Positions 3,915-63,869 of a stretch of DNA of 64,000 nucleotides are shown here, piece after piece. The stretch is taken from positions 33,428 to 97,427 of IMG/VR virus record IMGVR_UViG_3300048583_000100; one strand, 5' to 3'. The translations under genes and the position numbers were made by a program. Under the pieces are notes generated by a model. That model was not told where the DNA came from, made no database searches, and saw nothing but the letters and a program-made list of their open reading frames with translations. The first letter of the stretch is position 1, and the number at the start of each line of letters is the position of its first letter. Source of the stretch: a virus.

Positions 3915-4100
3915 TTAGTCCTGGTAGAGCTTCAGTGCTGAGAAGGTGCCGAATGGTGGCTTGAATTTGTAAAGCTTATCGAATGCGACATCTGCATGAG
4001 CTCGCGTTTTAAACTCCAGGGTCTTCATTGTCGCCGCCCGGCCACCACCATCTTCATTGGCGTAGCCACCAAAGGTAAGCACTATCAGAATCTGGTACAT
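3915..4100 (-). CDS. Small unknown protein
   Basis: A 61-aa product with GGAGAA about 10 bases before its ATG. It starts with a beta-strand-like hydrophobic run, then a Gly-rich loop (EDGGGRAA) and an alpha-beta tail, which resembles very small ferredoxin-fold phage proteins. It ends 1 bp before the next gene and lies just downstream of topoisomerase. Function not recognised. Confidence 0.6.
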   Translation of the reverse strand: MYQILIVLTFGGYANEDGGGRAATMKTLEFKTRAHADVAFDKLYKFKPPFGTFSALKLYQD

Positions 4101-4120
4101 GCGTGTTCTCCGAACTTGGG

Positions 4121-5515
4121 TTAGGCGGTGAAGGTGAAGGCCTTCAGCTCACGGCGGTACATCTCATTCGCAGTGTCAGCCTTGAGGACAGCAAGCGCCT
4201 TCTTGTCCTCGGCGATCTCGGCCTTGAGCTCTTCGATCTTGTCCTTGGTCAGATTCCAAATCGGCATCTGCAGCAGGCGGTCGTAGTCGACGAAGTCGTT
4301 CTTGAGAAGCAGAGTGACGAGGTCGTCCTTCTTCTTGTTCTTGAACGCATCGACATTGGCCAGATAGAACAGGATGAAGCGAAGCTTCTCACTCAGCCAG
4401 CGGATGCGTTCACTGACATCTGCGATCATCTTCTGACGGCGATCTTCGTAGCGAGCCAGACGCCAGGCGGTGAATCGTTCGATGACAGCTTCGGCCGACG
4501 TAAAGCGCTTGATGATGCCGTCGGTATCCCAGAGCGTGAAGTTCTCGGTATCGCGCGAGATGAGCTTAAACTTCTTGTAGAGCTCGTCAGTGTCAAGAGC
4601 CGAAGTCGAGCGAGGCACCTTGACGATGAACTCAAAGCTGTGCTCCGTCGGGTTGCCTTCGTAATCGGAGATGACGCCGGCGTCCTCGAGCTTATTGAGC
4701 GTCTTCTTGTAGTCGTCGAGATACGTACCGATAGGGAACTCGGTGATCTTGATGGTGGTCGAGTTAACAACCTCGAGCTTGCCAGTGATGACAACCTGTC
4801 CAGTCTCAGCATTGCGCTCAATGGTACCGGCGAAGTTGTTGTACCAGGGAATCAGCGCGCCTTCCTTGAGCTTCTTGCCATCGAGGACCTTGATGATCGT
4901 GTCGCGAATCTGAGTAGGATGATAGGCCATGATGTTGCAAGCGTGGCCCGTACCGGTACCCTGAGCGCCATTGATGAGCATCAGCGGGAGGATCGGCATG
5001 TAGGTGCGAGGCTCGATCTTGTCGCCATCGTTTTCCAGATGATCGAGGATGTCGTCATCAGCCTTCGGGAAGAGGGCTCGGAAATACGGAGAGAGCTTCG
5101 TCTCGATGTATCGAGCAGCAGCGGGGTCGGCCGACAGACGAGAACCGAACTGACCTTCCGGCAGGAAGACGTTCATGTTGTTGGAGCCTGCGTAGTTGTT
5201 CGCAAGACCAACAATGGTCGACTGCATGGAGCCGATACCGTGGTGGTAGTCGGTCTCAGATGCGACGAAAGCTGCGAGACGTTCGACAGAGAGAAGGCCA
5301 CCATTTTCACCGCGACGAAGCGTGCCACAGATTGCCTTACGCTGTGAAGGCTTGAGGCCGTCAGTCAGCAGAGGAATCGAGCGGACGTTGTCGTAAAGGG
5401 AGAATTCCTTGAACGCCGAGCCGATGAAATGGCGGGTTCGAATGACACGAATGGATTTGGAAGCCGTCTTCGTAGGAGTCATCTTGGGTTCTGCTTTCTT
5501 GATAATGCGAGACAT
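4121..5515 (-). CDS. 52: Type II DNA topoisomerase medium (GyrA/ParC-like, T4 gp52-like) subunit
   Basis: The breakage-reunion subunit. SIPLLTDGLKPSQRKAI (about 46-62) and the catalytic tyrosine in AAARYIETKL (Tyr136) are present, with the long C-terminal coiled-coil gate from about 370. Its 464 aa match T4 gp52 (about 440) and lack the GyrA C-terminal beta-pinwheel, as in T4. It acts with the large subunit at 5758-7743 to remove supercoils during replication. A TTTACG/TACAAT promoter sits so close that its -10 box ends 5 bases before this ATG. The mRNA may be leaderless, or translation may begin at Met12 (5482). Confidence 0.92.
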   Translation of the reverse strand: MSRIIKKAEPKMTPTKTASKSIRVIRTRHFIGSAFKEFSLYDNVRSIPLLTDGLKPSQRKAICGTLRRGENGGLLSVERLAAFVASETDYHHGIGSMQSTIVGLANNYAGSNNMNVFLPEGQFGSRLSADPAAARYIETKLSPYFRALFPKADDDILDHLENDGDKIEPRTYMPILPLMLINGAQGTGTGHACNIMAYHPTQIRDTIIKVLDGKKLKEGALIPWYNNFAGTIERNAETGQVVITGKLEVVNSTTIKITEFPIGTYLDDYKKTLNKLEDAGVISDYEGNPTEHSFEFIVKVPRSTSALDTDELYKKFKLISRDTENFTLWDTDGIIKRFTSAEAVIERFTAWRLARYEDRRQKMIADVSERIRWLSEKLRFILFYLANVDAFKNKKKDDLVTLLLKNDFVDYDRLLQMPIWNLTKDKIEELKAEIAEDKKALAVLKADTANEMYRRELKAFTFTA

Positions 5516-54085: not shown

Positions 54086-54232
54086 CTAGTCTTGACGTTT
54101 AAGATCAGCGATTACTTGGTCTATCTCGTAATCGCTGTACCCATCGACCCACATTGCGGATCGAATAGCAGCCTCTTCTTGTTCCTGGCTAGGTTTGAAC
54201 CACGCCAGGAACTTTAGAAAGAGCCGAGCCAT
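54086..54232 (-). CDS. Small unknown protein
   Basis: 48 aa; ATG overlaps the Ro60 stop by one base (TGATG), so it is translated from the same mRNA. MARLFLKFLAWFKPSQEQEE start, acidic end. May be an anti-Ro or membrane-associating peptide; no evidence for either. Confidence 0.6.
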   Translation of the reverse strand: MARLFLKFLAWFKPSQEQEEAAIRSAMWVDGYSDYEIDQVIADLKRQD

Positions 54233-55860
54233 CAGAACTGCTGAATCAGCTGAGGAGCTGCCGAGTCAAAGCCGACGATGTCGAGCATACCAGGGTCCTT
54301 CGGGTCGGCGATCGTGAAGCTAGTCGTCGAAGTACCGCAGACGATCAGCTTCGCATCGCGGTTGTACTGCTTGCGGTAGCGCGCGAGCGCTTCTACCGGC
54401 TGCATACGACCCGCGTAGGTCTCGTTGTCCGTGATGACGATGAACTTGTCAACAGCAGACATGTTCTTCTCGATGGCCGTGAGCATTGGCAGCGAGCAGT
54501 CAGTCGAGCCCCAGCTGAAGTTGCGAATCACGTTGAGCACGTTGTCGAGACGCATTGCTGGCGTGATCTTGAGCTCGCTCATCTTCGAGTTGAAACCACC
54601 AACCCAAGAGTTCGACTCACGCTTCACGACTGCCATTGCGAGAACACCGGCAACTTCTGCAGCGGTGAGGTTAGGAGCACCGATGGCGCGTGCACCGAAC
54701 ATCGAGCCCGAGCAGTCAACGCCGATGAAGTGGCCCTGACCAGTGCTTTCGATGTACTGGAACGAATCATAGAACGCATCGTTCAGCGCATCGAGGACCG
54801 CCTGTACAGGCTGCCAGGTGAGAGTACCGCGATCACCATGGCCCTGGCGGTACTGGTTGAAAGCGTTCAAGATGGTGATCGGGTGAACTCGACCGTTCTT
54901 GATTGCCTCTGCATCAGTCAGCTTGGCGATGACAGTCTTCAGATCGCTCGAGAGCGGCTTGATGACGCCAATGTTGGTGAGCTGACCCAGCTTACGGATC
55001 AGCGCAGTCATGCCCATGTTCTGGACCAGTGCGCCCATTACATCAGCGTCACGGTGCAGTTCAGTTGGCAGCATTTCCCAGCTGATATCGCGGTAGTCTG
55101 CGATCACGCGGAGAGCGTTCTTCTTGTTCTGTGGCTCACGCTTCAGCGACTCGACAGCCGTGTACAGGCCTGGCAGAGCAACATTGGCTTCAGTGAAGGT
55201 CTCCGCACCCTTGACGGTGTAGCGGAACATGTTCGACTGGACGTCAGACTTCGGCTTCACGTGTGCGAGGCGGAGGACGTCGCGGTGCGACCAACCATCA
55301 CGAGACTGGTACTTGAGCAGCTGGACGGCGAGCTTGTCTTCGCCACGCTTGGTGTACCATGCAGCAACACCGCGCTTCGCAGCAGCGTTCCACTTGCCAA
55401 GCTCGTCAAGTGCAGAGACGAACTGGAAGAGATGCGTACCGATACGAGCCACACGAGGCAGAGCCTCGTAAGCAGCAGCGACAGTTGCTTCGTTGCCATG
55501 GATGGCGCAAAGAGCCAGCGCGAACACAGCTGGGTCGTTCTTTGGCGCGCGACCTTCGGTTGAGAACTCGACGATGCGATTCACGACACGGATGCCGTCT
55601 TCGTGGATGCACTTGATGACGTTCTTACCGGCATCCTTCGTCAGCTTCTGGGCAGAAGCGTAGTACGACGGCTTGTCGGAACCGAGGATGAGGAAGCGGT
55701 CGAGGTAGCCCCAGTTGTCTAGGACGAACGTGAAACCACCGGCATAGTTCTTGGCCATTTCGGTCTCACGACCAGCAATTGGCGAAGTCTGGCGGGTCTG
55801 CGTGGTAGCAGGGTTCGTCGACAGCGTCGAGGCGTAGAAGTTCTTGAGGTTCTTTGACAT
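54232..55860 (-). CDS. rsr: Ro60/Rsr-like RNA-binding protein (TROVE + vWA)
   Basis: 542 aa. N-terminal HEAT-like TROVE ring (about 30-350) with helical repeats such as GIRVVNRIVEFSTEGRAPKND and DPAVFALALCAIHG. C-terminal von Willebrand A domain with a MIDAS: GVDCSGSMFG (about 370), the Thr in GSTDCSLP and ITDNETYAG. Bacterial Rsr binds Y RNA and misfolded RNA and works with exonucleases in RNA decay under stress. It is preceded by an unusual 500-nt structured leader (55861-56365) and followed by two small genes. Confidence 0.88.
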   Translation of the reverse strand: MSKNLKNFYASTLSTNPATTQTRQTSPIAGRETEMAKNYAGGFTFVLDNWGYLDRFLILGSDKPSYYASAQKLTKDAGKNVIKCIHEDGIRVVNRIVEFSTEGRAPKNDPAVFALALCAIHGNEATVAAAYEALPRVARIGTHLFQFVSALDELGKWNAAAKRGVAAWYTKRGEDKLAVQLLKYQSRDGWSHRDVLRLAHVKPKSDVQSNMFRYTVKGAETFTEANVALPGLYTAVESLKREPQNKKNALRVIADYRDISWEMLPTELHRDADVMGALVQNMGMTALIRKLGQLTNIGVIKPLSSDLKTVIAKLTDAEAIKNGRVHPITILNAFNQYRQGHGDRGTLTWQPVQAVLDALNDAFYDSFQYIESTGQGHFIGVDCSGSMFGARAIGAPNLTAAEVAGVLAMAVVKRESNSWVGGFNSKMSELKITPAMRLDNVLNVIRNFSWGSTDCSLPMLTAIEKNMSAVDKFIVITDNETYAGRMQPVEALARYRKQYNRDAKLIVCGTSTTSFTIADPKDPGMLDIVGFDSAAPQLIQQF

Positions 55861-58646: not shown

Positions 58647-58677
58647 CAGATGTCACGATGGTGACACCGAAAGATGG

Positions 58678-58750
<73 letters not shown>

Positions 58751-58759
58751 ACATTGTGT

Positions 58760-59215
58760 TTATTTATCACCAGCAAGAAGCTTGGCAGCCTTCCTGACGA
58801 TTGAAGCCTGTGACTTTCTGCCCTGAGCAATGAACTGCTTCTCGGTTAGCCAGTGAGTCGACTTGGTTTCGTAGTGGGGTTTCTTGAAGTCGTCTTTGTC
58901 CTTGACCTCGCCCATGTAAATCGTCATCTTGTAAGACTCTTTCTTACCACGGACCTTGCTAGAGAAGACTACTTGAATGGTTTCCTTGATGAGATTGCCA
59001 CGCTTAAGACCGAGTTCCTCTCGACCTTCACGAAGCGCAGCTTCATATACGCCCTCACCAGTGTCAATTCCGCCCTTAGCTAGCTGGGGTTCTGCACCAC
59101 CATACTGCGCTTTAGAAGGCGTCATGAAGTAAAAGAGCGGCTCACCATTCTCATAGACATAGGGGATGAATCCGGCACGCTCTCTCACGTCAGGTAGAAT
59201 CTCGTCTAGCTTCAT
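58760..59215 (-). CDS. Nudix hydrolase, candidate packaged protein
   Basis: 151 aa. Complete Nudix box GGIDTGEGVYEAALREGREELGL (G48, E54, R62, E63, E66, E67, G69). MKLDEILPDV starts the protein; L-D-E at 3-5 or V-R-E at 10-12 could be cut by a head protease, but this is weaker than in the other cargo genes. Nudix enzymes hydrolyse nucleoside diphosphates linked to other groups (ADP-ribose, NADH, capped RNA). Shares an operon with 59221-59667 behind the late box at 59708-59715. Confidence 0.88.
   Translation of the reverse strand: MKLDEILPDVRERAGFIPYVYENGEPLFYFMTPSKAQYGGAEPQLAKGGIDTGEGVYEAALREGREELGLKRGNLIKETIQVVFSSKVRGKKESYKMTIYMGEVKDKDDFKKPHYETKSTHWLTEKQFIAQGRKSQASIVRKAAKLLAGDK
58761..58768 (-). 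promoter_or_regulatory. T4-type late promoter (GATAAATA) before tRNA-Thr
   Basis: Late box overlapping the end of the Nudix gene, 11 bp before the tRNA; it could drive the tRNA. Confidence 0.5.
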
Positions 59216-59220
59216 GAACC

Positions 59221-59667
59221 TTACTTTACAGCCTTAGGCTTCTTGATCTGTAGGTCCATGTTTACGAAGTTGTTACCCTGCATACCCTGCTCGGAGTAAC
59301 CGACGCTCTTCACGTACTGTGTGAGCTTCTTCTTGTCAAGGAGTTCCTTGAAGGACTTGAGGAAGTTCGAGTCAGTGTAGATGAGGTCATGCTTCGATGC
59401 CTTGTAGCCGTCAAGCACGATGTCGATGACGCCGTCAGCGGTCTTGCTACCATCATTTTCTTCGTCGAAGTAGTGAGGACGAATTGCCTTGATGACGAAG
59501 GTCATCTCTTCATCGTTCTTACCCCATAGACCACGGCTCTTCTTGCCATAGGCCTTGACCTTTGAGCCGACTAGAGCTGCGCTCATAGCCTTCAGAATTT
59601 CCTTGGTCGTTGTAGGAACTGGAGCAGCCTCGTTTACAACCTGCTTGATTAGTTCGAATGTCTTCAT
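59221..59667 (-). CDS. Candidate packaged protein
   Basis: 148 aa. MKTFELIKQVVNEAAP resembles the targeting peptide of T4 internal proteins (MKTYQEFIAEA), with cutting after V-N-E. The rest is Lys-rich and mixed alpha/beta (IKAIRPHYFDEENDG). No recognised domain. AATAAATA late box at 59708-59715. Five bases before the Nudix gene start. Confidence 0.7.
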   Translation of the reverse strand: MKTFELIKQVVNEAAPVPTTTKEILKAMSAALVGSKVKAYGKKSRGLWGKNDEEMTFVIKAIRPHYFDEENDGSKTADGVIDIVLDGYKASKHDLIYTDSNFLKSFKELLDKKKLTQYVKSVGYSEQGMQGNNFVNMDLQIKKPKAVK

Positions 59668-59707
59668 GTTGATTCCTTAGAATGGATGGAGCACTTGGTT
59701 CGCAGGG

Positions 59708-59715
59708 TATTTATT
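59708..59715 (-). promoter_or_regulatory. T4-type late promoter (AATAAATA)
   Basis: Late box 41 bp upstream of the cargo gene at 59667, just after the end of the release-factor-like gene. Confidence 0.7.
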
Positions 59716-59719
59716 GCTC

Positions 59720-60391
59720 TTACCACATTAGATCGAAGAACCCGCCGAGAACTTTGTCACACTTTACAGTGCAGCCGCTCGCATGATCCTTTACGACATT
59801 GTCTTGGAAGCGGTACGTTCTCATCTTGTCACCTCTCATACCTGAGCCGACCTGCTGCTTACGCGTAGAAGACAGCTCTGCTCCAGCGATCATAGACTGT
59901 CGACGGTTGACTCTTTCGAGGATTGCTGTCTTAGCTTCGTCAAGGGAATTCTCTCGACTACGACATGATGCTGTGGCTGTGGTTGAGGTCGGGATATGGA
60001 TGATGCGACAGGAGTTCTGGGTCTTGTTACGATGCTGCCCACCAGGTCCAGTTCCGGAGTACCACTCTATGCGGAAGTCGCGATCGTTAAATTCGATTCG
60101 CTTTACTTCCTTTGGGTCTATGATTGCGACAGTGACGGTAGACGAATGAACACGTCCACGTTTTTCATTCGGTGGGATTCGCTGAACGCGATGGCCACCG
60201 GACTCTTTCTGAAGCTCTGATAGATCGTCGCCCGTTACTTCAATTGAAAGTTCACCGGGCCTATCGTCTATCAGGCGGTGAGTTCAACCGAAGCGAACGA
60301 ACATTTTGGTGTAAGCCTTCGCCAGATCACGTGCGAACAGCTTAGCATCTTCTCCGCCTTCGGCGGCTCTTAGTTCGATAATGCGCTTCAT
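59720..60391 (-). CDS. Class I release-factor-like protein with an in-frame UGA
   Basis: 223 codons with AAGGAG before ATG 60391. Contains GTGPGGQHRNK (GGQ at 117-119), GGHRVQRIPPNEKRGRVHSS (codon-recognition loop; PPN at 73-75 where RF1 has PxT) and RGDKMRTYRFQDN near the end. The N-terminal domain of RF1 is missing. Codon 36 is TGA (60284-60286), in frame, at the place where relatives have Trp (RFG-W-x-x). The frame stays open and conserved after it. Readthrough, regulated suppression, nonsense mutation or sequencing error are possible; a +1 shift runs into a stop soon. Confidence 0.8.
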
Positions 60392-60402
60392 TGAATTACT
60401 CC

Positions 60403-60606
60403 TTAGATTGGATCACACTCTCCGCGTTCGATCATTATTGCTCGAACTGCGTCATTTACTTCTTGCTTCTCTTCTTCGCTAAGCTCCCACCAAAGGGTGT
60501 CTAGCTTATCTAGAATTTCATCTTCTACGCTATCGTCGGCATTGCCATCTCGCGCAGCCAGAAGATACCGAGTTTCTTCCATGTACTTTTCGACTTTCGT
60601 TGTCAT
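60403..60606 (-). CDS. Small acidic helical protein
   Basis: 67 aa, highly acidic (DDSVEDEILDKLDTLWWEL), predicted helical. ATGA overlap with peptide deformylase upstream and 11 bp before the release-factor-like gene. Unknown function. Confidence 0.7.
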   Translation of the reverse strand: MTTKVEKYMEETRYLLAARDGNADDSVEDEILDKLDTLWWELSEEEKQEVNDAVRAIMIERGECDPI

Positions 60607-61091
60607 GCTACATTCCTTTCTTCTGGGTCGGCATACTTATCGAAGGTGATGCCATTGAGATGGTCGAGTTCGTGCTGGAAGCAAATAGCGTCAATGCCAT
60701 CCAGATCAAGAGTGAACTCCTCAAAGTTCTCGTCGACGGCCTGGACTTGAATGCTGTTTGGACGAGCAACAGTCATTGCGACACCAGGAAAACTGAGACA
60801 CCCTTCCTTGAAGGGTTCGCGCTTTCGACTGACGGATAGAATTTCTGGATTGATGAACACTCTACGACCAACACTCTTGGGGTATCCAGTTTTGCTGGTG
60901 TCCATCACGAAGATGCGGGCGGCACAGTCCACCTGAATAGCAGCAAGCCCGATCGCCCCGTGATAGTACATGGTTTCAAACATGTCAGGTACGAAATGAT
61001 TTATCAGGAAGTTGCCAGCTTCGTCGTCGCGTACAGCAATGCTATGACAGTGAAGTCTCAGGTCTGGACTTTTGAGAAGCGGCAGAATCAT
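60603..61091 (-). CDS. def: Peptide deformylase
   Basis: 162 aa. All three motifs: GAIGLAAIQVD (46-55), EGCLSFPG with metal-ligand Cys98, and QHELDHLNG with His140, Glu141 and His144. Removes the formyl group from nascent proteins. Phage copies are known in several groups, shorter at the C-terminus than host enzymes, as here. Co-operonic with the release-factor-like gene, so a translation-related module. Confidence 0.95.
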   Translation of the reverse strand: MILPLLKSPDLRLHCHSIAVRDDEAGNFLINHFVPDMFETMYYHGAIGLAAIQVDCAARIFVMDTSKTGYPKSVGRRVFINPEILSVSRKREPFKEGCLSFPGVAMTVARPNSIQVQAVDENFEEFTLDLDGIDAICFQHELDHLNGITFDKYADPEERNVA

Positions 61092-61110
61092 GGGTACGCT
61101 CTAGAATTGG

Positions 61111-61180
61111 TCTCGCTGGTGGGATTCGAACCCTACAAACTCAACCTTCGGAGGGTCGAGACCGATCCATCGGCAGCGAG
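61111..61180 (-). tRNA. Unusual tRNA-Arg (CCG)
   Basis: 70 nt with 7-bp acceptor CTCGCTG/CAGCGAG, discriminator A and encoded CCA (61108-61110). Anticodon arm CGACC-CTCCGAA-GGTTG gives anticodon CCG. Odd: the D-arm is only CCGA-TGGA-TCGG, without the normal A14 and G18-G19 loop, and the T-stem has a bulged A (GT-A-GGG/CCCAC). May be degenerate or a specialised tRNA. Confidence 0.65.
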
Positions 61181-61217
61181 ATATTGGTGGGTCGCAATCT
61201 ATTTAAGCGACCGTATG

Positions 61218-61457
61218 TCAGTGGGTAATCAGCCCCAGCATCTCTGCTAGATGACTGAAACCTGGGACCTTAGTCCAGAGAAAATGTTCAAGCGGGAAGA
61301 GCAGAGTCTGCGCTGCCCAGAAGGACGGCATCTTCACGAAGCTCTTACAGTGGTGATAGCACTTGACTAGAAAACCCCGCTCGTCTGCATGAAAATGTGG
61401 AGGGCAGTTGTGGTGATCGTCAAGATTGATATGAGGGTGTTCGTGGTCATGCGCCAT
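61218..61457 (-). CDS. His-rich small protein
   Basis: About 79 aa from the internal ATG (MAHDHEHPHINLDDHHNCPP). Eleven His in the first 45 residues suggest metal binding. One hydrophobic segment (FWAAQTLLFPLEHFLW) later. A TTG further upstream would add 10 residues. No family recognised. Confidence 0.65.
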   Translation of the reverse strand: MAHDHEHPHINLDDHHNCPPHFHADERGFLVKCYHHCKSFVKMPSFWAAQTLLFPLEHFLWTKVPGFSHLAEMLGLITH

Positions 61458-61492
61458 GTTTTCATTCTCTAAAGTAGGGTGGAACAAACGGG

Positions 61493-61891
61493 TTACTTCT
61501 TTGCGTTTAGAATTTCCTCAATGGCGGATGCACTGCCACGAATGTAAATCTCAGCCTTAGGCTTTCTGTCTCTAAAGCTTGAGCTGACGGAAACTTCAAC
61601 TCCAGATGGGTGCTTGAATTTTGCACCGTAAGTATCGCTAGAGAAGTCTCCGCGAGACGAGCCACCATCGGCTCTCATGTCAGCCTTATCGAACCCCAAT
61701 GTTCTGAGGTATTCGTTAGCGCCATGATCTTTTGCGGTATGATTGAGATTAGAAGAATACGAAAGACTTGAGCCAGTGCTCGACGTGTTCTTTACAGTCG
61801 GCTTTGCGTAACCGCAATGCTTGGCTATTTCAGTAGCCAGCGTAAGTGCGGGGTCCTTGCTGACAGCTTCGAGCAGGTCATTGAGTTTCAT
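61493..61891 (-). CDS. Candidate packaged protein
   Basis: 132 aa. MKLNDLLEAVS is a capsid-targeting-like peptide (cut after L-L-E). Ser/Thr-rich middle (KNTSSTGSSLSYSSNLN) and a basic end (SSSFRDRKPKAEIYIRG). No domain recognised. Has its own late promoter at 61914-61921. Confidence 0.7.
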   Translation of the reverse strand: MKLNDLLEAVSKDPALTLATEIAKHCGYAKPTVKNTSSTGSSLSYSSNLNHTAKDHGANEYLRTLGFDKADMRADGGSSRGDFSSDTYGAKFKHPSGVEVSVSSSFRDRKPKAEIYIRGSASAIEEILNAKK

Positions 61892-61913
61892 TAGAGTCTT
61901 CCGTTGAAAATTC

Positions 61914-61921
61914 TATTTATG
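61914..61921 (-). promoter_or_regulatory. T4-type late promoter (CATAAATA)
   Basis: Late box 23 bp upstream of ATG 61891, seven bases after the tRNA-Arg(TCT) 3' end. Confidence 0.7.
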
Positions 61922-61927
61922 CAATGG

Positions 61928-62001
61928 TGCGCCCAGAGGGACTCGAACCCCCGGCCACAGACTTAGAAGGTCCGTGCTCTATCCAGCTGAGCTATGGGCG
62001 C
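61928..62001 (-). tRNA. tRNA-Arg (TCT)
   Basis: 74 nt: acceptor GCGCCCA/TGGGCGC, AGCTCAGCTGGATAGAGC D-arm, anticodon loop CTTCTAA (TCT, reads AGA/AGG), T-loop TTCGAGT, discriminator A and encoded CCA. Canonical. Confidence 0.95.
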
Positions 62002-62017
62002 AGAATTTAATCACGTG

Positions 62018-62100
62018 AGCTGGGTTCGAAACCAGCTGCTTCCTTGGTTGATAGCTATCGGGGCCAGATCGGCAGACCTCCCCGCTTCACTTCAACCCAG
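62018..62100 (-). ncRNA. Structured RNA candidate between tRNA-Arg and 62171
   Basis: Minus-strand RNA folds as GGTTGA/TCAACC outer stem (62046-62051 with 62092-62097), CGGGG/CCCCG (62059-62063 with 62080-62084) and AGGTC-TGCC-GATCT on top, followed by a separate hairpin AGCTGG/CCAGCT (62018-62037) with a T-loop-like centre. A G-U pair in the minus RNA is an A-C mismatch in the plus RNA, so minus is the likely strand. CTGGGTT (62094-62100) could pair instead with AACCCAG (62020-62026). Not a standard tRNA. Confidence 0.4.
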
Positions 62101-62170
62101 ATCCCACTCCGCCGATAACGGAAGCATAGGGGTTAATGCGTGTCCTTCCACGCCGTTACGCGATATCGAT

Positions 62171-62479
62171 TTAGTTCTGTAGCGCTTGCTTGTAAGACTT
62201 CATGTCGTAGTAGCGAGTACCGTTGACGTGCATTGAGGCGTAGGAATTGATCGTGTCAACTCCATTCTTCTCAACGTTCCATACAAAGGTTTCTGAATTG
62301 CCGCGATTGTCTTCCCACTTGGACGTAAACGTTGAGTGCTCGATAGAGCCGCTCTTGTTTCGGTATGGGCAGTAGTCGTGAGTTTCAATGCAGCGATAGT
62401 CATGCGCTTCGGTATAACGGGTGAGGATGTACCTCTTCAAGATTCCGTTTTCGTAGAAGTCTTCGCGTGTAGTGATCAT
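62171..62479 (-). CDS. Unknown protein
   Basis: 102 aa. Beta-rich, Tyr- and His-containing N-terminal half (RYILTRYTEAHDYRCIETHD). ATGA overlap with the gene upstream. No family recognised. Confidence 0.65.
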   Translation of the reverse strand: MITTREDFYENGILKRYILTRYTEAHDYRCIETHDYCPYRNKSGSIEHSTFTSKWEDNRGNSETFVWNVEKNGVDTINSYASMHVNGTRYYDMKSYKQALQN

Positions 62480-62691
62480 CGCATTGCCTCGTATCGAGCC
62501 ATCTCTAAATCGTAATGGCTGGGCAAACCAGCATCAATCAAATCGGCATCATCAATGATTGCCTCGATGAGACTGCATTCTTCTGCGGTGTGGAATTGAC
62601 AGTGAGACCGTCCCCAAAATGCTTTAGCGATTGCTTCATTCGAGGGAGGATTGTTGCGGAGCTTCGCTAGCGGATGCAGGTCCTCACTCAC
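62476..62691 (-). CDS. Small helical unknown protein (GTG start)
   Basis: About 71 aa from GTG 62691 with GAGG upstream; the longer frame to 62754 runs through tRNA-Val and is not credible. Acidic, helical C-terminus (LIEAIIDDADLIDAGLPSHY). No family recognised. Confidence 0.6.
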   Translation of the reverse strand: MSEDLHPLAKLRNNPPSNEAIAKAFWGRSHCQFHTAEECSLIEAIIDDADLIDAGLPSHYDLEMARYEAMR

Positions 62692-62712
62692 GGCATGTAC
62701 CTCAAAAATTGG

Positions 62713-62784
62713 TGCTTCCTGTCGGTTTCGAACCAACGACCTCTTCGATGTCAACGAAGCGCTCTACCACTGAGCTAAGGAAGC
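62713..62784 (-). tRNA. tRNA-Val (GAC)
   Basis: 72 nt: acceptor GCTTCCT/AGGAAGC, AGCTCAGTGGTAGAGC D-arm, anticodon loop TTGACAT (GAC), T-arm GTTGG-TTCGAAA-CCGAC, discriminator A, encoded CCA. Canonical. Confidence 0.95.
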
Positions 62785-62796
62785 ATTTGAATTTGG

Positions 62797-62867
62797 TGCT
62801 CCCACCTGGTAGTGACCCAGGGTTTCCGCTTTACCAAAGCGGTGTAATGCCTTTATACTATAGGAGC
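62797..62867 (-). tRNA. Second tRNA-Thr (GGT) with altered T-loop
   Basis: 71 nt: acceptor GCTCCTA/TGGGAGC, phage-type D-arm TAGTATAAAGGCATTACA, anticodon arm CCGCT-TTGGTAA-AGCGG, discriminator A, CCA encoded. The T-stem is intact (CCTGG/CCAGG) but the loop is GTCACTA where TTCRANY is expected, so positions 54 and 58 are G and C. Overlaps the homing nuclease gene by 10 bp. Confidence 0.75.
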
Positions 62868-63541
62868 GTCTTTATCTGTGACCATTCGAGCTGCTGTTCT
62901 CCAAGAACGATCACTCGAATTGCGTTGCGCTGTTGTGCTTGTGATATTTTGTTCGCATCTTTAGTCTGCAGATAGCTATTCTTTGGGTCGAGATAAACAT
63001 CAAAATCAGGTAGGTAAAAATCGGGGTAATATTTGTTTCCCAAATCAGTCCAAACAAATCCGATTTTTGGTCTTTGCCACTGTATACTATTCTCATCCAA
63101 AGATTCAGCCACCCGCACTTCCCATTTTGAATCGAACCATGTGTCGCGATACCATTGACCCCTGTTGGGATGCGGTCTGTAGCCGCCTAGGTTGCGAGCT
63201 TTGGCTGAGTCTGATAATTTTTTCCTACCAGCCTCAGTGTATTGCTTAACGACAATTTTATTGGCCTCGGCAACTGTTCTCGTTTTCATGAATGGCGTGA
63301 GAGCGCTTACCGCAACATTCATTTTCTTAGCCACGTCTCTAAGACTTAATCCTGAGTCATAGAGTTCCTGCGCTTTATATTTGTCAATTGCCGTCTTTGC
63401 GGGATCGCGTAATAGACCACGCTTTTTGAATCTAGAAATCTGACTCGCATGTAAATGATATTTCGTGCACACTGCCTTCCAGGTGCCTATCTTGTCGGCT
63501 TCAGATTGAAGCCAATCGAAATCATATTCGATTCTGCCCAT
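62858..63541 (-). CDS. EDxHD (Vsr-like) homing endonuclease
   Basis: 227 aa. The N-terminal half has helix-turn-helix-like segments (GLSLRDVAKKMNVAVSAL). The C-terminal half has DSKWEVRVAESLDENS (Glu), KYYPDFYLPDFDVYLDPKN (PDF, then D) and downstream His-lacking residues, matching the Vsr-like PD-(D/E)xK 'EDxHD' fold of phage homing nucleases. AT-rich relative to neighbours. TATAAATA late box at 63569-63576. Sits within the tRNA cluster, a frequent insertion site. Confidence 0.78.
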   Translation of the reverse strand: MGRIEYDFDWLQSEADKIGTWKAVCTKYHLHASQISRFKKRGLLRDPAKTAIDKYKAQELYDSGLSLRDVAKKMNVAVSALTPFMKTRTVAEANKIVVKQYTEAGRKKLSDSAKARNLGGYRPHPNRGQWYRDTWFDSKWEVRVAESLDENSIQWQRPKIGFVWTDLGNKYYPDFYLPDFDVYLDPKNSYLQTKDANKISQAQQRNAIRVIVLGEQQLEWSQIKTLL

Positions 63542-63568
63542 AGCATTTATCCTTGAAAAAGCTAAGAA

Positions 63569-63576
63569 TATTTATA
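63569..63576 (-). promoter_or_regulatory. T4-type late promoter (TATAAATA)
   Basis: Exact late box 28 bp before ATG 63541; the same flanks (GAATATTTATAG on plus) occur at the other homing endonuclease promoter (26183). Confidence 0.75.
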
Positions 63577-63613
63577 GGAAGGACGTGTGCCATCATTGTA
63601 CGTGAATATCTGG

Positions 63614-63687
63614 CGGGGCGGACGGGACTTGAACCCGCGACCTCCGGCGTGACAGGCCAGCATTCTAACCAGCTGAACTACCGCCCC
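63614..63687 (-). tRNA. tRNA-Asp (GTC)
   Basis: 74 nt: acceptor GGGGCGG/CCGCCCC, D-arm with AGTTCAGCTGGTTAGAAT, anticodon loop CTGTCAC (GTC), T-arm CGGG-TTCAAGT-CCCG, discriminator G, encoded CCA (63611-63613). Canonical. Confidence 0.95.
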
Positions 63688-63721
63688 TAAATTTGGCCCA
63701 CTGCCCAGTTTCCGAGACTGG

Positions 63722-63790
63722 TTTTCCTTAAGGGAATCGAACCCCTCACCAACCGCGCGCGTCGTTGGTCGCCAAAGTGCAGTGGATAAA
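63722..63790 (-). pseudogene. tRNA-like remnant
   Basis: Good 3' half: T-arm AGGGG-TTCGATT-CCCTT, then AAGGAAA, A and CCA (63719-63721). The 5' half (TTTATCCACTGCACTTTGGCG) pairs poorly, with a bulged A in the acceptor; the central arm CCAAC/GTTGG has a 10-nt loop without T33. Most likely a decayed tRNA of unknown identity. Confidence 0.5.
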
Positions 63791-63798
63791 TCATTTGG

Positions 63799-63869
63799 AG
63801 GCGTGGCCCAGAATCTAACTGGGGTACCAAGGGTTGCAGCCTCGTGCATAAACACTCTGCCACCACGCC
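63799..63869 (-). tRNA. tRNA-Cys (GCA) with U19 and A56
   Basis: 71 nt: acceptor GGCGTGG/CCACGCC, anticodon arm CGAGG-CTGCAAC-CCTTG (GCA), T-stem CCCAG/CTGGG, discriminator T (as in Cys tRNAs), CCA encoded (63796-63798). D-loop is AGTGTTTA where phage Cys tRNAs have AGTGGTTA, and T-loop is TTAGATT, not TTCGATT. Confidence 0.85.

Follow-up and report, generated by a model that had tools for sequence, protein, structure and literature searches.

How does a phage make a release factor from a gene that is itself interrupted by a stop codon? This question is raised by a release-factor gene on the minus strand of a 64,000-nucleotide window (the whole stretch of DNA that was analyzed; bases 33428-97427 of the 97,427-base virus record IMGVR_UViG_3300048583_000100), in which codon 36 is an in-frame TGA. 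All coordinates are window positions unless a locus is named, and the features are collected in Table 1. We consider it likely that this gene makes its product by programmed UGA readthrough at codon 36, within a feedback loop and most likely with insertion of Trp, because the TGA is invariant in relatives, TGA is otherwise an ordinary stop codon, synonymous conservation peaks at the TGA, and the base following it was never T in diverged relatives.

The open reading frame (ORF) starts with ATG at 60391, ends with TAA at 59722-59720, and contained no in-frame stop besides the codon 36 TGA. The original prediction described an in-frame UGA at this codon in a gene with a ribosome-binding site and an intact GGQ motif, and all of these elements were located. 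When codon 36 was read through, a Pfam search detected the PCRF domain (2.3e-21, residues 4-88, across the TGA) and the RF-1 domain (4.9e-16, residues 96-203), both above the cut-off; with the GGQ motif, these domains place the product among the class-I bacterial release factors (RF1/RF2 superfamily). The best equivalog scores of the read-through product were those of RF1 (prfA) models, yet they reached 178 and 170 bits versus cut-offs of 400 and 423 bits, respectively. The RF2 (prfB) model scored 95.6 bits versus a cut-off of 370 bits, with SPF replaced by PPN/PPT, and the PrfH model scored 43.8 versus 166.65. An AlphaFold2 model of the read-through product (predicted local distance difference test score, 82) showed the fold of RF1 domains 2 to 4, and the closest structure was ribosome-bound Thermus RF1 (template modeling score, 0.81; E, 1e-17). 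The phage factor starts at RF1 residue ~87-112, so domain 1 is absent. Each of the 25 phage records searched contained exactly one RF-1-domain gene. The codon-recognition loop was indeed PPN, as originally noted, but this triplet is peculiar to the window phage. Nearly all relatives carry PPT together with the RF1-type Gln and Thr, and RF1-like codon choice, which had been left open, is therefore the default expectation.

Next, the conservation of the TGA was examined in related genes. IMG/VR scans yielded loci L002-L143, and codon 36 was TGA in 132 of the 133 loci from the first three scans that aligned across it; the exception (L134) was a prfB-like +1-frameshift gene. After removal of identical copies, TGA was present at codon 36 in 91/91 distinct genes, so that the same UGA does occur in related phages and TGG in all relatives was not found. 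In contrast, the other Trp codons of these 91 genes were exclusively TGG (189/189), including W110 in all 91 genes and W223 in 90. A thinned set of 39 genes with less than 78% identity gave the same picture (TGA at codon 36 in 39/39, TGG at 81 Trp codons elsewhere). The last scan used a DNA motif ~30 codons downstream and was thus blind to codon 36. It returned 80 loci, all of which contained a recoding stop and none a plain open frame: 76 had the same-frame TGA at codon 36 (75 by direct alignment and L391), three had a +1-frameshift site, and one (L360) had a same-frame TAG. Because the scans share contigs, locus counts of different scans are not mutually independent. The top INPHARED matches (H1-H7) look like bacterial contigs labeled as phages and were left out of the phage evidence. 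Genes with the same-frame TGA at codon 36 are referred to as R-type below. A same-frame TGA version was also observed in a seemingly chromosomal setting in Jiella (L280, near 4001-4690), flanked by RNase H-like and peroxiredoxin-like genes (neighbors named by eye).

The TGA position is occupied by Trp, Phe, Tyr, or Leu in homologues, and Cys was not among these residues. Solved RF1 structures from Thermotoga (1rq0, KGWNLEV) and Streptococcus (1zbt, QGWKFEV) have Trp there, and Trp delivered by tRNA-Trp is thus the simplest reading of the inserted residue. Together with the exclusive use of TGG at the other Trp codons, this agrees with the proposal that UGA stands in place of UGG. The family therefore combines an in-frame stop that is conserved with protein conservation before and after it, as expected of a readthrough gene. 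The comparison supports a real gene in which the UGA is kept as UGA and a single protein spans it.

In addition to the codon itself, its nucleotide context appeared to be constrained. Synonymous conservation was measured as codon identity given the same amino acid, observed over expected, in sliding windows across related genes. The value was 1.92 at codon 37 versus a gene mean of 1.02 (standard deviation, 0.18), approximately five standard deviations above the mean; the nine top windows all fell within codons 35-41, and the rest of the gene was near expectation. The consensus at the site was GGC TGA ACT ACC CGC CTG ATA, or AAG CAC following TGA. The +4 base after the codon 36 TGA in the 39 diverged genes was A in 33, C in 4, G in 2, and T in none, whereas T occupied this position in 130 of 349 (37%) ordinary TGA stops sampled from related phages (P = 1e-8 for 39 genes, assuming an independence that does not fully hold). 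A +4 U reduces readthrough in bacteria (PMC5289835). The universal TGA in the clade, the synonymous constraint, and the avoidance of +4 T all favor readthrough over a prfB-type frameshift, as originally proposed. Moreover, a +1 shift in the window gene would soon meet another stop, since the frame after GGT reads GAA CTC ACC GCC TGA and closes after 4 codons, and a search for the prfB-type frameshift cassette gave no match at the site.

Other huge phages, as well as bacterial genomes, contain the same release factor, and almost every member of this wider family carries a recoding stop. In the tree, the family stood apart from cellular RF1 and RF2 (100/99), the same-frame codon 36 TGA genes formed one clade (100/98), and TAG sites were scattered among TGA sites. 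One sister group shifts frame at the same place, where a prfB-like site is present (e.g., CGG AGG GGT CTT TGA). These sites consist of a Shine-Dalgarno-like GGAGG, CTT, and a stop, as CTT TGA or CTT TAG; the interrupting stop was TGA at 22 loci and TAG at 5. They occur in phages (L145/L161, L166-L170, and L172) and in many Myxococcota chromosomes or bins, including Nannocystis and Minicystis (e.g., L290, L304, and L305). One Myxococcales bin contained copies without the stop (L284, L285, and L287). The original claim of a mechanism different from that of prfB thus stands for the window gene, but its sister genes do carry a prfB-like +1 site at this position. Because of this site in the sisters, the position of the TGA is linked to release-factor recoding.

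A group of AT-rich phages (five of the records are ~595-735 kb) had one or two in-frame TGAs at the site or within ~20 codons, with at least one in 9/9 genes examined. TGA was an ordinary stop in the AT-rich genomes sampled; genetic code 4, considered for the huge phages with two in-frame TGAs, was therefore rejected there as well, and these in-frame TGAs are probably programmed too. Two in-frame TGAs each were seen in the release-factor genes of L146, L149, L162, L164, and L171, and reading through both would be very inefficient if UGA were not decoded at a high level. In L148 (LR756511), the gene upstream of 2501 apparently requires a +1 shift twice in succession, at CTT TAA C (read by eye) and then at CTT TGA C, before EIILEI. 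The same-frame TAG of L360 (AAT TAG CTG) lies ~14 codons past the usual site and is a possible case of UAG readthrough.

On the proposed mechanism, most ribosomes would stop at codon 36, and a peptide of 35 residues would be released. Under a shortage of host RF2, or of release-factor capacity as a whole, termination at UGA would be slow, and tRNA-Trp could win the competition and insert Trp where RF1 has Trp. Readthrough would then yield the 223-residue factor, which would restore termination and close a loop like that of prfB, through readthrough and not through a +1 frameshift. We infer both the regulatory response to termination (sensing and feedback) and the activity of the factor in termination.

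Several results weigh against this mechanism. The recognition determinants of relatives (HRxQR, PPT, and HTS) are those of RF1, and RF1 does not read UGA; it is thus not guaranteed that the level of the factor itself provides the feedback, and what the stop senses may instead be host RF2. The 97-kb record contained no tRNA-Trp, and the host tRNA-Trp would therefore have to serve, unless a phage copy lies outside the fragment. RNAalifold found no conserved RNA pairing downstream of the TGA among 22 diverged sequences, and the nucleotide-level signal is thus probably the immediate context of the TGA. In the window itself, the segment downstream of the TGA (60210-60287, minus strand) folded better than each of 200 shuffled versions (z = -3.8), a property not shared by most of the relatives tested. 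A downstream hairpin, visible in the window but not conserved in relatives, was consequently rejected as the signal, and a hairpin noted early (TCACCGCCT..AGGCCCGGTGA) was not the predicted minimum-energy fold.

If the factor reads UGA, the loop would be true autoregulation; if it does not, the UGA would sense host RF2. The fact that UGA and UAG replace each other among the frameshift relatives hints that the factor or the sensor is not tied to one stop. We tentatively raise the possibility, itself rather doubtful, that the family lacking domain 1 reads all three stops and that the internal stop is a gauge of total termination capacity. Such reading would explain the interchange among close relatives with PPT unchanged, as well as the single gene of this type per phage record examined.

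Alternatively, the UGA could set a constant low dose, in which a fixed small readthrough fraction keeps the factor scarce without any sensing. RF2 is toxic when overexpressed, and recoding of prfB is believed to guard against such an excess (PMC12421855, PMC3521657); an RF1-like factor, moreover, would not feed back on UGA. However, the family retains a stop codon and not merely weak translation, and its branches use either readthrough or a +1 frameshift at the same place, the common element being a termination-dependent switch. A constant dose is accordingly regarded as unlikely.

The decoding tRNA could also come from the phage, with production of an opal-suppressor tRNA (UCA anticodon) timing the factor. 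Normal-length UCA-anticodon tRNAs were indeed present in two R-type phages of standard code (L262 and L271), but these were only 2 of 28 R-type records, and the record of the window was not among them. The L262 copies carry A73, versus G73 in tRNA-Trp, and no UCA tRNA was especially close to tRNA-Trp. tRNA-Trp(CCA) was present in 13 of the 28 records. The suppressor tRNA was thus too rare to be the general decoder, and timing by its production is improbable. Three phages also carried CUA-anticodon tRNAs, and one carried a UUA-anticodon tRNA, with the standard code apparently in use.

Reassignment of TGA to Trp in the phage or its host (code 4) has precedents among reassigned-stop phages, but TGA terminated 47 of the 104 large ORFs of the record, and a similar share in relatives, and it was neither absent as a stop nor frequent as Trp. 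The DNA gyrase B gene of the record ends in TGA, with its domains extending nearly to the stop. A record-wide search for TGAs with homology on both sides gave the release-factor gene alone at high frequency, besides its antisense frame. These phages use the standard genetic code with TGA as an ordinary stop, and, given also the TGG at every remaining Trp codon of the gene family, reassignment is very improbable. Insertion of selenocysteine, for which UGA is the codon and with which nucleotide constraint just downstream would agree, is scarcely credible, considering the missing conserved pair and the absence of Cys among the homologous residues. A ribosomal hop from the GGT before the TGA to a downstream GGT, as in T4 gene 60, would fit the GGT TGA ... 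GGT of the window, which has an inverted repeat between, and the better-than-shuffled folding of this stretch, though into a different structure; however, several relatives (e.g., L053) lack a matching landing codon, and residues 37-46, which make up a strand of the model, show protein-level conservation with a nearly invariant R39, leaving the hop next to no probability. Sequencing error or nonsense decay is refuted for the family by a TGA common to 91 distinct genes from many assemblies whose remaining frame is open and conserved, and it has a negligible chance of explaining the window gene.

The gene lies in a translation-related neighborhood. One small ORF separates it from the peptide deformylase gene, and the upstream 67-amino-acid ORF had no match in a Pfam search. 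Seven tRNA genes (Thr x2, Arg x2, Val, Asp, and Cys) surround the release-factor and deformylase genes within 58675-63869 (minus strand), and a Ro60-like protein with a TROVE domain and a Ro60 vWA domain is encoded at 54232-55860 (minus strand).

Table 1. Features of the release-factor locus (window positions) and stop-anticodon tRNAs of related phages (positions in the named locus)
Feature	Position	Strand	Remark
Release-factor gene, RF1-like domains 2-4, without domain 1	59720..60391	-	223 codons plus TAA; TGA at codon 36
Codon 36, in-frame TGA where RF1 has Trp	60284..60286	-	
35-codon leader, the product if ribosomes terminate at the TGA	60287..60391	-	
Codons 35-41, nucleotide-level constraint around the TGA	60269..60289	-	Gene-wide maximum of synonymous conservation in relatives
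Shine-Dalgarno AAGGAG	60399..60404	-	Read from sequence
Codon-recognition loop PPN (residues 73-75)	60167..60175	-	PPT in nearly all relatives; PxT in RF1
GGQ catalytic motif (residues 117-119)	60035..60043	-	Intact
Peptide deformylase gene, upstream neighbor, translation-related	60603..61091	-	PF01327, 5.1e-43
UCA-anticodon tRNAs	L262 1332-1408, 1468-1544		Two copies beside tmRNA
UCA-anticodon tRNA	L271 1468-1544		
CUA-/UUA-anticodon tRNAs	L199 14391-14465; L256 2638-2712; L224 1480-1552; L322 412-488		

These results suggest that viral and bacterial release-factor genes have repeatedly turned their own substrate, the stop codon, into a sensor, and the idea of feedback by readthrough becomes directly testable. 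Because annotation pipelines tend to split or drop such interrupted genes, phage translation-control genes are probably undercounted. A survey of huge phages reported that they encode RF1/RF2 and did not comment on recoding (PMC7162821). In the literature searched, which excluded preprints and included few subscription papers, no account was found of recoding in the release-factor genes of phages.

The prototype of a release-factor gene controlled through its own stop is prfB (PMC12421855). As in prfB, the window gene is interrupted early by UGA, and the full protein would need slow termination; it differs in keeping the frame, in having neither a Shine-Dalgarno-like nor a CTT element at the site (GGT precedes the TGA), and in placing the stop at codon 36 inside PCRF of an RF1-like protein without domain 1. 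The sister genes share the prfB cassette type, but their stop can be TAG, which was absent from 8,164 prfB sites (TGA, 98.6%; TAA, 1.4%) (PMC12421855). A 2016 recoding review noted that a same-frame UGA was predicted for RF2 genes and seen in none, and that a UAG counterpart in RF1 genes was unknown; the sole readthrough precedent it named was eRF1 of mimivirus, a giant amoeba virus (PMC5009743). The R-type genes would be the first same-frame UGA case in release-factor genes of this kind, present as a whole clade, and the sister genes appear to provide the UAG counterpart by frameshift. In Mimivirus/Megavirus, readthrough of an internal stop and one frameshift were experimentally shown for the class-I release factor R726 (PMC3521657). 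R726 resembles the window gene as a viral release-factor gene with an internal stop for which feedback was proposed (PMC3521657); in contrast, it is of the eukaryotic/archaeal eRF1 type, is known from two viruses of amoebae, and is not homologous over its full length to RF1/RF2.

Among bacterial factors, RF1 (prfA) shares domains 2 to 4, the GGQ motif, and the HRxQRxPxT...HTS region with the phage factor, and some RF1s have Trp at the UGA position. The phage factor, however, lacks domain 1, forms its own clade far below the prfA cut-off, and is encoded by a gene interrupted by UGA. PrfH/RFH is likewise a release-factor relative without the N-terminal domain, but the phage factor scored below its cut-off, and a link to PrfH/RtcB was not supported, since RtcB was present in only 3 of the 12 records searched and not in that of the window. 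In phage Q-beta, the A1 extension of the coat protein is made when host tRNA-Trp reads a UGA as Trp. Both cases would thus yield a phage protein from a leaky UGA decoded as Trp; in Q-beta, readthrough extends a structural protein at its C terminus, whereas here the product would itself be a termination factor.
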